A stretch of 64,000 bases of DNA from Balneola sp. (lineage in GTDB: Bacteria > Bacteroidota > Rhodothermia > Balneolales > Balneolaceae). Shown one piece after another: positions 14,031 through 63,911 of this stretch. A model generated the notes under the pieces. The model saw only the letters and a list, made by a program, of their open reading frames with translations. It ran no database searches and was not told where the DNA came from. Numbering within the stretch: position 1 is the stretch's first letter; the number at the start of each line of letters is the position of its first letter. A program made the translations under genes and the position numbers. The stretch spans positions 62,001 to 126,000 of the forward strand of contig NZQV01000006.1 of the NCBI GenBank assembly GCA_002696035.1, written 5' to 3'.

Positions 14031-14086
14031 GGTCCTCTCTCTGGATTATAGCAAAGCTAAATCCGGTCTCTCTCCAAAGAGAGACC
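14031..14086. repeat. Dispersed GTCCCT hairpin repeat, inverted diverged copy
   Basis: GGTCCTCTCTCTGG followed by a small hairpin (TAGCAAAGCTA) and the perfect hairpin GGTCTCTC-TCCAAA-GAGAGACC (14065-14086). It is arranged as the reverse of the copy at 14148-14200. The rest of 13,870-14,262 holds no gene I can support. Confidence 0.55.
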
Positions 14087-14147
14087 GATCTTGCCAATTG
14101 GTACAATGTTGCCTTAAGCAGACTTTGTTCTCATAGCCAAGAACCTG

Positions 14148-58480: not shown

Positions 58481-59368
58481 ATGTCTGAAAAAAACCACAA
58501 ATCTGGATACGTTGCTATCATCGGGAAACCGAATGCGGGTAAATCTACGCTGATGAATTATATTTTGGGGGCCAAGATCTCCATCACTACGCACAAAGCG
58601 CAGACCACACGCCATCAAATTGTGGGTATTTTTTCGGATGAGGACACGCAGATCGTTTTTCTTGATACGCCCGGAGTTATCTCTCCAAAGTATGAGCTAC
58701 AGAAAGCGATGATGAAAACCGTTGAGCGCGCACGAAGCGATGCTGATGTCATCCTTTTTATCCACGACCCGATGGACAAACATCCCGCCGATGACGTGAT
58801 CGAGCTTATTAAATCCATTAATAAACCCGTCTTTTTAGTAGTAAATAAAATGGATGTGGCAGATCAGGAGAAAGCACAAAAGTCGGCTAAGGAAATTGAA
58901 GGAAAACTAAAAATACGTTCCACTCATTTTGTATCTGCTACAGCAGGAACAGGCGTTAAAGAATTGATGGAAGACATTCGGAGCTGTTTAATCCCCGGCC
59001 CTCCCTTCTACCCTAAAGAAGACCTGAGTGAACACCCGGTTCGATTTTTCGTTTCTGAGCTGGTTCGAGAGCAGATCTTCCTGCAATTTCAGCAAGAGAT
59101 CCCTTATTCCTGCACCGTAGAAATTGCCTCTTACGATGCCGATGTGGACATCGACCGCATTCATGCCGACATCATCGTAAATCAAAAATCACAGAAGGGA
59201 ATGCTCATCGGCAAAGGTGGTTCAGCCATTAAAGAACTGGGGATCGAAGCCCGAAAAACCATTGAAGAATTCATTGGTAAACAGGTGTATCTGGAGCTTC
59301 ATGTGAAAGTCCGCGAGAAATGGCGAGAAAAAGAAAATTGGGTTCGGAATTTGGGGTATGGCAAGTAG
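58481..59368 (+). CDS. era: GTPase Era
   Basis: 295 residues. Essential ribosome-assembly GTPase that binds 16S rRNA. G-domain: G1 GKPNAGKST, G3 DTPGV, G4 NKMD, and SATAGTG. The C-terminal KH RNA-binding domain has the Era-specific GMLIGKGGSAIKELGIEARK. Normal length, clear start with a lagging Met at 58481. It ends directly before a dispersed repeat. Confidence 0.97.
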   Translation: MSEKNHKSGYVAIIGKPNAGKSTLMNYILGAKISITTHKAQTTRHQIVGIFSDEDTQIVFLDTPGVISPKYELQKAMMKTVERARSDADVILFIHDPMDKHPADDVIELIKSINKPVFLVVNKMDVADQEKAQKSAKEIEGKLKIRSTHFVSATAGTGVKELMEDIRSCLIPGPPFYPKEDLSEHPVRFFVSELVREQIFLQFQQEIPYSCTVEIASYDADVDIDRIHADIIVNQKSQKGMLIGKGGSAIKELGIEARKTIEEFIGKQVYLELHVKVREKWREKENWVRNLGYGK

Positions 59369-59590: not shown

Positions 59591-59644
59591 TTCCTATTAA
59601 AAAATAATTTGCACCTTCCATCATCTCCCCTTAACATAAGAGCC

Positions 59645-59722
59645 ATGAAATTAAACGAACAAAATATTATCAGCTCTTTCGCAACAATGTGTTGTATGTG
59701 TATGTGCATGGCGCAGACATAA
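59645..59722 (+). CDS. Cys/Met-rich leader peptide of the methionine operon
   Basis: A 25-codon frame (MKLNEQNIISSFATMCCMCMCMAQT is the full peptide in two parts: MKLNEQNIISSFAT then MCCMCMCMAQT). Codons 15-22 are only Met and Cys: ATG, TGT, TGT, ATG, TGT, ATG, TGC, ATG. The stop codon TAA (59720-59722) overlaps the first strand of the attenuator that follows. This is the plan of classical leader peptides such as TrpL or HisL, here tuned to Cys- and Met-tRNA. A weak AAGAG stands 2 bases before the ATG. Confidence rests on the joint evidence of residue run, stop position and hairpins; expression is not shown. Confidence 0.75.
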   Translation: MKLNEQNIISSFATMCCMCMCMAQT

Positions 59723-59782
59723 GGGCTGAAATATATTCACAATTTACAAGCCCTTTTGAATGCAACTCAGAAGGGCTTTTTT
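59721..59782 (+). promoter_or_regulatory. Transcription attenuator with competing hairpins
   Basis: Strand 1 AAGGGCT (59721-59727), strand 2 AGCCCTTTTGA (59749-59759), strand 3 TCAGAAGGGCT (59767-59777), then six T residues. Strands 2 and 3 make an 11-bp terminator with a 7-base loop; strands 1 and 2 make a 7-bp antiterminator. Both need strand 2, so they exclude each other. A ribosome halted at the Cys/Met codons leaves strand 1 free (read-through); one that reaches the stop covers strand 1 (termination). Confidence 0.78.
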
Positions 59783-59823
59783 GTTGTACGTTAGTTTCAA
59801 TCGTTCTTTTACATTAGTTGCAT

Positions 59824-59951
59824 TCTCATTACGAAAGGTGGAGGGATCAGGTCCTTTGAAGCCTTGGCAACCGTTCAGATAATTTAATTGTCTGGAAAAG
59901 GTGCTACATCCTGTCTGTTATATGAAATTCATATAACGGAAAAGATGAGTT
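59824..59951 (+). ncRNA. SAM-I (S-box) riboswitch
   Basis: The aptamer matches the S-box consensus closely: closing helix P1 CTCAT / ATGAG, GAAAGGTGGAGGGA, GGTCCTTTGAAGCCTTGGCAACC, the AAAGGTGCTACATCCTGTC segment, and the P4 hairpin GTTATATG-AAATT-CATATAAC. S-adenosylmethionine is the ligand of this class and binding normally favours termination. It lies between the attenuator above and the terminator below, in front of the methionine genes. Confidence 0.95.
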
Positions 59952-59972
59952 CGATAAGACCCGGTTTTTGTT

Positions 59973-60015
59973 AAAAAAGCCTCTTTCGGATTCATCCCCG
60001 AAAGAGGCTTTTTTT
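59973..60015 (+). terminator. Expression-platform terminator of the SAM riboswitch
   Basis: Stem AAAAAAGCCTCTTTCGG / CCGAAAGAGGCTTTTTT with an 8-base loop and more T residues. Its loop side (CGGATTCATC, 59987-59996) can pair with GATGAGTTCG (59944-59953), which includes the 3' strand of P1, giving the antiterminator. Thus P1 formation with SAM frees the terminator. Confidence 0.9.
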
Positions 60016-60034: not shown

Positions 60035-60523
60035 ATGCGAAAAACTTACAACGACTGGTACTTAAAAAAGATGAGAGCCACCAAAGAGCTCTCCAAAGAA
60101 ACCGATCAGGTTGAACAGCTGCTTGAAAAGGTGCAAACTATTGCTGTGGTCGGTATCTCCAGAAACCGGCATCGCGACAGCCAATATGTAGCTCGATATC
60201 TTCAAAACGCCGGGTATAAAGTGGTACCTGTAAATCCCGCTGCGGACGAGATCCTTGGTGAGAAAAGTTATCCCGACCTGCAAAGCATTCCCTTTCCGGT
60301 AGATGTGGTGGATATTTTTCGACGCCCGGAAGACATCCCCGAGGTGGTTGATGAAGCCCTTTCCATCAACCCAAAAGTAATTTGGCTGCAGCTGGGAACA
60401 GGTGATCATCCCGAAGAACGAGAAAAGGCAGCATCCAAGAATATCACCTTTGTGCAAAAACGGTGTATCAAGGTCGATCATCAGTTTTTGATCCGACCTA
60501 AAAAAGAAAAGCAGGCATCATAA
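60035..60523 (+). CDS. CoA-binding domain protein (YccU-like)
   Basis: 162 residues with a Rossmann-type CoA_binding_2 domain: TIAVVGISRNRHRDSQYVARYLQNAGYKVVPVNPAADEILGEKSYPDL, VDVVDIFRRPEDIPEVVDEAL and the conserved IWLQLGTGDH, then FVQKRCIKVDHQ with one Cys. The family is widespread and of unknown function. It is the first gene after the riboswitch, so it should be made with metY when SAM is low, which hints at a role in sulfur or acyl-CoA handling (inference). Confidence 0.88.
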   Translation: MRKTYNDWYLKKMRATKELSKETDQVEQLLEKVQTIAVVGISRNRHRDSQYVARYLQNAGYKVVPVNPAADEILGEKSYPDLQSIPFPVDVVDIFRRPEDIPEVVDEALSINPKVIWLQLGTGDHPEEREKAASKNITFVQKRCIKVDHQFLIRPKKEKQAS

Positions 60524-60620: not shown

Positions 60621-61958
<1,338 letters not shown>

Positions 61959-62072: not shown

Positions 62073-62612
62073 ATGAGTACTCTTACAACTACAAAACCAA
62101 AAACTGAAACCAAACTGAATGAAGCCATTTCAGGTGTCATCGCTGCGGTTCAGGAAGATCCCAAAAATGCAGCAGCCACTTTCAGTGTGAATTCAAAACT
62201 GGAAGAAGGTTTTCATTCCAGGATCAAAGCACGGGATTTTGACTTTGTGTCTGATGAACCCGAAGCCCTTGGCGGCAAAGATGCCGGACCTAATCCTGTA
62301 GAATATGTGTTGGGAGCACTGGCTGCTTGCCAGGAAATTGTGATCAAGGCGCATGCCGGACAGTTGGACATCGATCTGAAATCCGTGAAGGTTGATGTTT
62401 CCGGAGATCTGGATCTGCATGGCTTTTTTGCGTTATCTGATGCCCGTCCCGGATTCACCAATGTGCGGTATCAAACGTTCATTGAAACCGAAGAAGAAGA
62501 CCCGGTGAAACTTCAGAAACTAAAAGATCTTTCCTTAGAAAATTGTCCCGTACTTGACATCATCAAAAACCCGGTACCGGTTTCTGGTGAGGTCTCATAC
62601 ATAAATAATTAA
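62073..62612 (+). CDS. OsmC family protein
   Basis: 179 residues with the OsmC fold and both redox cysteines: LGALAACQEIVIKAHA and LENCPVLDIIKNP. OsmC and Ohr proteins reduce organic peroxides through a Cys pair. The N-terminal 40 residues are an extra helical region. Its position between metY and metX suggests a link to thiol metabolism (inference); it may use its own transcript, as a hairpin lies on each side. Confidence 0.88.
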   Translation: MSTLTTTKPKTETKLNEAISGVIAAVQEDPKNAAATFSVNSKLEEGFHSRIKARDFDFVSDEPEALGGKDAGPNPVEYVLGALAACQEIVIKAHAGQLDIDLKSVKVDVSGDLDLHGFFALSDARPGFTNVRYQTFIETEEEDPVKLQKLKDLSLENCPVLDIIKNPVPVSGEVSYINN

Positions 62613-62870: not shown

Positions 62871-63911
62871 ATGCCGAAACCACAATTACATAATTTTCAA
62901 TCTTCCTTCACCACCGAATCCGGCGTGGAAATTCAGCAACCACAAATTGCTCACAGAAGCTGGGGAGAGCTGAATGAAGCAAAAGACAACGTGGTCTTTA
63001 TCTGCCACGCCCTCACCGGAAATACGGATGCAGATGTTTGGTTTGGAGGATTGATCGGGCCCGGGAAAGCCCTGGATCCGGACAAGCATTTTATTATCTG
63101 CCCAAATATTCTGGGAAGTTGCTATGGCACTACCGGACCCACTTCCATCAATCCAAAAACCGGCAAAACCTGGCAAGCTGATTTTCCCGAGATCACCATT
63201 CGGGATATCGTCCGGTTCAACCAAAAGCTACTCGATGACCTGAAAATTACTGAGATTGAGTTGGTGATCGGCGGTTCTCTGGGGGGAATGACGGCGCTTG
63301 AATTTGCCATCATGGATGAACGTGTTCAAAAAGCTGCATTATTTGCGATGGGGAAATCTCATACGCCGTGGGCCATTGGAATTAGCGAAGCACAGCGTAT
63401 GGCTATTTACGCGGATGAATTCTGGAATGATGGTTTTTATGATGAAGAACATCCTCCCAAAAAAGGGCTGGCTGCTGCCCGGGCCATGGCCATGATCACC
63501 TATCGAACGCCGGAAAACTATCAGCAGAAATTTGGGCGTGAAATCCATTCCAAAAATGAAATTTATCAGGTAGAATCGTACCTGAATTATCAAGGCGACA
63601 AATTAGTGCACCGTTTTGATGCCAATGCTTACATCACGCTTACAAAGGCCATGGATTCCCATGATGTGTCGCGAGACCGTGGTAGTTTTGATTCGGTTTT
63701 AAGTGGTCTCACAAAGCCGGTTTTGATCGTTGGTTTTGATAGCGACAAACTGTATCCCATTGAGGAGCAACGCGAACTGGCAGAACTCATACCCCACAGC
63801 CAACTCGCTGAAATTAAATCTCCCTACGGACATGACGCCTTTTTGATCGAATTCGATCAGCTTAACGTTGAATTAACCAAATTCTCTCACTCACTCACCG
63901 AAGCAAAATAA
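62871..63911 (+). CDS. metX: Homoserine O-acetyltransferase
   Basis: 346 residues, alpha/beta-hydrolase fold. Transfers acetyl from acetyl-CoA to homoserine, giving the substrate of MetY. The nucleophile Ser is in VIGGSLGGMTALEFA, the acid in VGFDSDKLYPIEEQ and the His in SPYGHDAFLIEFDQ; NILGSCYGTTGPTSINP is the family's substrate loop. The next gene starts 3 bases after the stop. Confidence 0.94.
   Translation: MPKPQLHNFQSSFTTESGVEIQQPQIAHRSWGELNEAKDNVVFICHALTGNTDADVWFGGLIGPGKALDPDKHFIICPNILGSCYGTTGPTSINPKTGKTWQADFPEITIRDIVRFNQKLLDDLKITEIELVIGGSLGGMTALEFAIMDERVQKAALFAMGKSHTPWAIGISEAQRMAIYADEFWNDGFYDEEHPPKKGLAAARAMAMITYRTPENYQQKFGREIHSKNEIYQVESYLNYQGDKLVHRFDANAYITLTKAMDSHDVSRDRGSFDSVLSGLTKPVLIVGFDSDKLYPIEEQRELAELIPHSQLAEIKSPYGHDAFLIEFDQLNVELTKFSHSLTEAK

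Follow-up and report, generated by a model that had tools for sequence, protein, structure and literature searches.

In the window, the whole 64,000-nucleotide stretch of Balneola sp. DNA that was analyzed, a structured leader lies between era and the genes metY, osmC, and metX. Its parts follow one another in the order leader ORF, first terminator (T1), SAM-I aptamer, second terminator (T2), after which come a gene for a CoA-binding-domain protein and then metY-osmC-metX (Table 1). The CoA-binding-domain gene is the first one downstream here; in many relatives that place is taken by metY. The 371-nt leader region from 59645 to 60015 folds with a z-score of -8.75, and the part that holds the ORF and T1 (59645 to 59785) folds with a z-score of -4.25. 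Between 59300 and 60300 there are three terminator-like sites, where 0.7 are expected from shuffles: T1, T2, and a third on the minus strand.

Table 1. Features of the leader and of the neighboring genes (positions in the window)
Feature	Position	Strand	Evidence or remark
era	58481-59368		upstream of the leader
Putative promoter TTGCAC-17-TAACAT	59609..59637	+	read by eye, weak; ends 7 nt before the leader ATG
Cys/Met leader ORF, MKLNEQNIISSFATMCCMCMCMAQT	59645..59722	+	25 codons + TAA; frame-specific Cys/Met content; relatives
Strand 0 (protector), TCAGCTCTTT	59670..59679	+	fold; duplex with strand 1 -10.2 kcal/mol, p 0.015
Strand 1 of the candidate attenuator	59721..59728	+	overlaps the stop codon
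T1 intrinsic terminator (strand 2, loop, strand 3, T tract)	59748..59782	+	hairpin 59748-59778, 12 pairs, -16.4 kcal/mol
T1 apical loop GAATGCAACT, 5' side of proposed P0	59758..59767	+	complementary to 59816-59825
boxA-like element GTTCTTTTACA	59803..59813	+	missed in the preliminary description
AGTTGCATTC, 3' side of proposed P0, touching SAM-I P1	59816..59825	+	complementarity
SAM-I riboswitch aptamer	59823..59951	+	RF00162 67.6 bits, gathering 44.4
T2 intrinsic terminator, SAM-I expression platform	59973..60014	+	17 pairs
CoA-binding-domain protein	60035..60523	+	first gene 3' of the leader; partial matches to acetate-CoA ligase models, all far under cut-offs
metY, O-acetylhomoserine/O-acetylserine sulfhydrylase	60630..61958	+	TIGR01326 683.8 bits, cut-off 495.1
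OsmC-like protein	62073..62612	+	NF041052 86.3 bits, under cut-off 95
metX, homoserine O-acetyltransferase	62871..63911	+	NF001209 391.2 bits (cut-off 331); TIGR01392 420.3 (under cut-off 500)

A preliminary description of this DNA had proposed a Cys/Met leader-peptide attenuator followed by a SAM-I riboswitch, and the parts that it named are present. Codons 15 to 22 of the 25-codon frame are purely Met and Cys (M C C M C M C M). The stop codon overlaps strand 1, as had been stated, with AAGGGCT at 59721 to 59727 lying over the TAA. The rest of the proposed three-strand device is likewise in place: AGCCCTT at 59749 to 59755, a second AAGGGCT at 59771 to 59777, and a tract of six T residues at 59777 to 59782. 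Beyond T1, the aptamer scores above the RF00162 gathering threshold and a second terminator was found; T tract and aptamer are 40 bases apart, where 42 had been given. The preliminary description did not contain the fourth strand (strand 0), which pairs with strand 1, or the complementarity between the T1 loop and the stretch at the foot of the aptamer.

For comparison, the RF00162 model was searched against 92 genomes of the family (Balneolaceae), 82 of which had a match, and against 244 genomes of the class, 211 of which did. We read the DNA around 104 listed family matches and 80 listed class matches outside the family. The family matches divide into 22 located before metH and 82 with a MetY match downstream (a distant one in L022); metH-side loci were assigned with the N-terminal half of MetH from L036, which matches at 22/22 of them and at none of the remaining family loci. 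Among the matches listed, the 82 family loci and 27 from families f2 to f5 form a set of 109 metY-side loci of the order, and the SAM-I matches of five order genomes (G109, G111, G117, G124, and G125), which were outside the listing like those of some other class genomes, were left out of the order counts. The other 53 listed class loci were checked for Cys/Met ORFs only. Included in the 109 are L022, whose downstream gene is only 28% identical to MetY, and L104, whose aptamer is below the cut-off; both are without a leader. A leader was called where at least four of eight codons were Cys or Met in a scan of the 260 nt upstream of the aptamer, and T1 was detected by a hairpin scan with a cut at -8 kcal/mol.

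The Cys/Met run, which the preliminary description expected to be conserved, is indeed kept: a leader was found at 96 of the 109 listed metY-side SAM-I loci of the order, in five families, and at 0/22 metH-side loci of the family, where Cys and Met fill three of eight codons at most. Runs of at least six in eight codons occur at 72/109 listed metY-side loci compared with 1 of 4360 dinucleotide shuffles, and the reverse complements of the leader stretches reach five of eight at most. Among the class loci listed outside the order, 3/53 reach four of eight and none reaches five. The enrichment is confined to one frame, with a Cys/Met fraction across the 96 leaders of 0.32 in the ORF and 0.113 and 0.023 in the other two frames. 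Every one of these leaders has at least one Cys and at least one internal Met, Cys accounting for 18.3% of the codons (TGT 257, TGC 126) and Met for 13.8%. Across 75 non-independent pairs of related leaders, codon differences were synonymous in 151 cases and nonsynonymous in 484; among the changes that touch a Cys codon, 56/142 were silent. An ORF arising by chance was rejected as an explanation, given the rarity of such runs in shuffles and the frame specificity, and so was a simple ATGTGT repeat that would yield Cys and Met in several frames, because the other frames have so little of either.

The preliminary description had also named what would speak against an attenuator, namely relatives that keep the aptamer and lack the peptide run, the complementarity, or the first terminator. 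Most relatives are not of this kind; the part that holds is that 10/109 listed metY-side loci (L022, L046, six of genus g19, L116, and L121) have no leader ORF, and in none of these 10 does a T1 hairpin fall below -8 kcal/mol. Three further loci (L105, L129, and L134) have a Cys-containing ORF under the four-of-eight threshold, and L134 alone among them has a T1 hairpin below -8 kcal/mol. Among the matches listed, T1 was detected in 91 of the 96 leader loci, the remainder being L009 and L125 to L128. The latter four belong to one genus of family f2; their leader extends to a boxA-like site with no T1 along the way (from about -136 to -15 relative to the aptamer), and a long hairpin formed by the two ends of the ORF (-35 to -50 kcal/mol) encloses the Cys/Met run.

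How transcription of the leader begins can be approached through the spacing of promoter-like sequences. The putative promoter in the window was not picked by either promoter scan. Of 94 distinct upstream sequences from relatives, 31 carry a -10-like hexamer with its end at precisely 7 nt from the ATG, and 53 carry one at 4 to 10 nt, where 28 are expected. This position so close to the ATG suggests that the leader mRNA is leaderless. Promoter-like sites before the leader are in modest excess, with 28% of the 94 scoring at least 9 of 12 compared with 12% of shuffles.

Pairing between strands 1 and 2, a point on which the preliminary description had asked to be judged in relatives, beats that of shuffled segments in 85/91 loci at p<=0.05 and in 59/91 at p<=0.01. 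When everything between the leader start and T1 was scanned without bias, the segment that pairs best with strand 2 proved to lie no more than 16 nt from the stop codon of the leader in 91/91 loci, where about 32 are expected. With an assumed downstream footprint of 12 nt, a ribosome with the first or middle Cys/Met codon in its A site leaves strand 1 free in 91/91 loci, and one at the last Cys/Met codon leaves it fully free in only 61/91. A ribosome at the stop codon covers at least 5 nt of strand 1 in 91/91, a result that partly follows from where strand 1 was sought. The fourth strand is less general. Pairing of strand 0 with strand 1 is seen in the window, in its fold and as a duplex (p 0.015), but reaches p<=0.05 in only 22/91 loci, and a trp-type protector as a general feature is not supported; without translation, many family members would thus read through instead of terminating. 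In the window T1 has the lower energy (-16.4 kcal/mol, compared with -13.3 kcal/mol for the 1:2 duplex), so the first gate would depend on kinetics. Taken together, these comparisons lend good support to reading the first gate as an attenuator for Cys and Met that works through the ribosome and stands in series with SAM-I.

The second gate is an ordinary SAM-I riboswitch with a terminator-type expression platform. T2 was detected in 98 of the 109 listed metY-side loci and not in the other 11; the same scan found a T2-like terminator in 1/22 metH-side loci. Within the leader, Rfam models match nothing besides SAM, and their covariance-model scan of the window lists no T-box. Elsewhere in the window, that collection gives a whalefall-1 RNA match at 14032 to 14087 on the minus strand (43.1 bits, gathering 37). 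The leader would thus work like a tandem gate, yet it is not a tandem riboswitch, since its other sensor would be a translated ORF.

We consider it very probable that the metY/metX operon is controlled by two complete transcription gates placed one after the other, the first a ribosome-mediated attenuator and the second SAM-I. Comparison among relatives establishes, at the level of sequence, the ORF with its Cys/Met run, T1, the pairing of strands 1 and 2 at the stop codon, the aptamer, and T2; translation, stalling, termination efficiencies, the SAM response, transcription starts, tRNA dependence, and the lack of starts between the gates are what we infer. The short Cys/Met-rich ORF would be translated behind RNA polymerase. 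With ample charged Cys-tRNA and Met-tRNA, the ribosome would reach the stop codon and cover strand 1, leaving strands 2 and 3 to form T1. When either is scarce, the ribosome would wait in the Cys/Met run, strands 1 and 2 would pair, and T1 would be blocked. When no ribosome is present, strand 0 of the window would pair with strand 1. A polymerase that escapes T1 would pass the boxA-like site and then transcribe the SAM-I gate, where high SAM would end transcription at T2. The operon would accordingly be expressed in one situation alone, a shortage of Cys-tRNA or Met-tRNA combined with low SAM. The name of the MetY subfamily, obtained from a profile match, includes cysteine synthase, which makes a Cys input to the gate reasonable despite the presence of cysE-like and cysK-like genes. 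These two genes adjoin each other in this genome and are both below curated cut-offs. Given this pair, MetY need not be the sole route to cysteine, and the idea that cysteine is made solely via MetY is not supported.

Between the gates lies an element similar to boxA. The motif GTTCTTT is found upstream of the aptamer in 79/82 listed family metY-side loci (the exceptions being L041, L093, and L104), 16 to 23 nt before it in 77 of those 79, and in 0/22 metH-side loci. Loci without a leader have it too (L022, L046, and five of the six of g19), for which reason it looks like a part separate from the first gate. Among the class loci listed, G[TC]TCTTT occurs within 60 nt of the aptamer in f2 (10/10), f3 (4/4), f4 (1/1), f5 (10/12), f6 (3/3), and f20 (1/1), and in 0/49 listed loci of nine other families; L158 (f18) has a boxA-like site at -84, outside the 60-nt scan range. 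Because rRNA had no match in the window's own assembly, rrn leaders of the same genus were used for comparison. Five of the six examined, from three genomes, contain GTTCTTAGACATA, which is similar to GTTCTTTTACA; exact GTTCTTT is found in 0/6, and L278 has neither. The published boxA consensus, GYTCTTTAANA, is gamma-proteobacterial (PMC5725501). Regulation by boxA and Nus factors resembles the present case in having a GTTCTTT element in the nascent RNA; it differs in that the passages on it carry no riboswitch context and give a consensus for gamma-proteobacteria (PMC5725501). The site is possibly a Nus-factor input to a biosynthetic operon. The simplest history would have the series promoter, boxA, SAM-I, T2, and metY in place first, with the leader and T1 inserted later between promoter and boxA. 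By the same simplest account, the insertion would fall in the ancestor of the order, with loss in some lines.

Outside Balneolales, Cys/Met ORFs appear before metY in another order. A search of contigs with MetY gave at least 80 named loci, and 57 of those listed lie outside Balneolales (L208 to L264). A SAM-I match is located upstream of metY in 37 of these 57, about 1.4 kb away in L208 and with another gene between in L244 and L261. In 27 of the 37 listed loci, an ORF with at least four Cys or Met codons in eight starts 8 to 10 nt after the aptamer; 21 of these ORFs reach five of eight, and 0/1480 shuffles of the same stretches reach four. The taxa are Cytophagales and others (among them Pontibacter, Rufibacter, Botryobacter, Marivirga, Shiella, Phaeodactylibacter, and two Flavobacteriales), and the loci include L209, L213, L218, L221, L223, L224, L226, L228, L230, L234, L236, L243, L244, L251, and L261. 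The ORFs often end in runs such as MCMCCCCC or MCCCMCCCMC. No such uORF is found in 10/37 listed loci, among them Algoriphagus, Melioribacteraceae, and Membranihabitans. Where this reverse order is present, the Cys uORF may be translated under the control of SAM-I. Other arrangements lack the aptamer or the Cys run. L235 (Calditrichaeota), about 207 nt before metY, and L240 have a Cys/Met-rich short ORF and, by eye, a terminator-like hairpin with a T run, with no SAM-I match; judged by these features, they would represent the first gate on its own. Five loci (L212, L225, L231, L238, and L245) have a Thr-plus-Met ORF (for example ...TSFTTSTGMMMGRMSMA) about 240 nt before metY, with no Cys run, perhaps a leader that reads two products of the homoserine branch.

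Other explanations for the first gate can be weighed against these data. An intergenic terminator downstream of era, which lies upstream in the window, would be ordinary, and T1 might be merely that, with an untranslated short ORF, SAM-I as the sole regulator, and a cryptic promoter somewhere between T1 and the aptamer. Yet era was seen upstream in only 25/74 leader-bearing family loci (in upstream stretches of 229 to 1500 nt, so that it may lie farther off in some), and at seven loci without a leader (L046 and six of g19) the upstream era is not accompanied by T1; these observations led us to reject an era terminator as the sole explanation of T1. A promoter between the gates was rejected as well, because only 4% of 89 loci score at least 9 of 12 there, compared with 5% of shuffles. 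With strand 1 at the leader stop in every T1 locus and Cys and Met enriched in a single frame, we regard this account as very unlikely.

It is also conceivable that the amino acids of the leader matter in themselves. Cys and Met bind Cu(I), and a nascent chain rich in both might sense a metal such as copper instead of tRNA charging. A copper-linked uORF has been described (PMC9426467), which counts in favor of such sensing. Against it, what is conserved is the abundance of Cys and Met, not their order or spacing; the downstream genes make homocysteine; and the Thr-plus-Met runs before metY outside the order have no Cys run. Metal sensing is, in our judgment, highly improbable. There is similarly little chance that the first gate acts with boxA as a general sensor of translation or coupling with no amino acid signal. 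The boxA-like site between the gates in nearly all listed family metY-side loci is what such a sensor would have, and L125 to L128, with a leader that runs to boxA, no T1, and a long hairpin enclosing the Cys/Met run, point the same way. A general sensor would nevertheless have no need for Cys and Met codons, which make up almost a third of the leader, and the boxA-like site, being found in leader-less loci too, looks separate.

Under the preferred reading, in which a ribosome-mediated Cys/Met attenuator precedes SAM-I, the two gates may also be in physical contact. The apical loop of T1 is complementary to the sequence that touches the foot of the aptamer, and we call the proposed helix P0. 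The complementarity spans 9 to 12 bases in genera g1, g2, g4, g5, g7, g10, and g21 (with an internal loop in L103). It passes both shuffle controls in 25/27 loci of these seven related genera (the exceptions being L087 and L100) and in 2/64 other loci. For alignment, 22 distinct rows of the 27 were kept, leaving out four identical ones and L060, which differs outside the helices. Standard pairs fill 96.4% of P0 cells in these rows, and both sides have changed at two pairs (in 3 and 11 sequences). When the T1 stem and P0 are taken together, 97.6% of cells pair compared with 91.2% in shuffles and 27 to 56% in slid versions. Double-change cells number 22 versus 5.1 in shuffles, a value reached by 0/500 shuffles; pairs with a double change number 4, which 67/500 shuffles reach.

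P0 could form fully only with T1 unformed, that is, in antiterminated transcripts. A stalled ribosome that opens the first gate would free the T1 loop, and P0 would then close around the boxA-like site and alter either the folding of the second gate or the loading of Nus factors. That the gates are mechanically linked in this way through P0, and that much of Bacteroidota has in common a joint reading of cysteine supply and SAM ahead of metY, built either as leader then SAM-I or as SAM-I then a Cys-rich uORF that starts 8 to 10 nt past the aptamer, is a broader proposal that we offer tentatively and hold to be possible but short of probable. With a covarying helix between the gates, the possibility that attenuator and riboswitch influence each other can be put to a direct test.

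The preliminary description had suggested that the series arrangement itself was undescribed. This stands for the leader-peptide version, as our search of the openly (CC-) licensed literature, which may miss subscription papers, turned up no case of a SAM riboswitch placed in series with a leader-peptide attenuator. It does not stand for the logic, because a sensor of tRNA charging combined with SAM-I has been published with a T-box in the first role (PMC9481103). Tandems of SAM-I/T-box(Met) and T-box(Met)/SAM-I are known, the SAM-I-first order preceding metX and metY; the table of that paper gives two T-box-first and seven SAM-I-first cases, and its section 36 speaks of two SAM-I-first (PMC9481103). 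Like the present leader, these tandems have two gates in series that respond to tRNA charging and SAM, with the same truth table for Met. They differ in that the T-box RNA binds tRNA directly and for Met alone, whereas here a translated leader would respond to Cys and Met. Neither "attenuat" nor "leader peptide" occurs in the main text of PMC9481103. The SAM-I/AdoCbl tandem before metE of Bacillus clausii, as described in the same paper, is alike in joining SAM-I to a second, independent switch in series before a methionine gene, and unlike in that each of the two inputs is a small-molecule ligand of RNA and the logic is NOR (PMC9481103).

Translated leaders offer further parallels. In the Salmonella mgtA leader, with its proline-codon peptide mgtL, the structures reportedly overlap within one leader and respond to other inputs, and do not form two complete gates in series. 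It shares with our case the integration, in one leader, of a translation-based signal and another signal (PMC6460261). A candidate Cys leader-peptide attenuator before cysS, uORFC-8-2, is alike in combining a short Cys ORF with an intrinsic terminator; it has two Cys codons, precedes another gene, and is presented in passages that carry no riboswitch (PMC8632094). B12 riboswitches and uORFs of Mycobacterium tuberculosis likewise place a riboswitch and a short ORF on one transcript, resembling the SAM-I-then-uORF order of Cytophagales; they are translational OFF switches, and the abstract of that work does not include amino acid sensing by the uORF (PMC11260477).

The leader of this Balneola operon therefore combines two known devices in a way that we did not find in the CC-licensed literature, that is widely kept, and that includes a proposed helix between the gates. 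Since the arrangement is retained in most of the relatives read within the order, both comparative and bench tests of it are possible. Among leader-peptide devices it may be the equivalent of the T-box/SAM-I tandems already in print, and it raises the question of why cysteine, besides methionine, must be read before metY. More generally, our findings point to an RNA circuit in nature with two inputs, of which one would arrive through the translating ribosome and the other through an aptamer.
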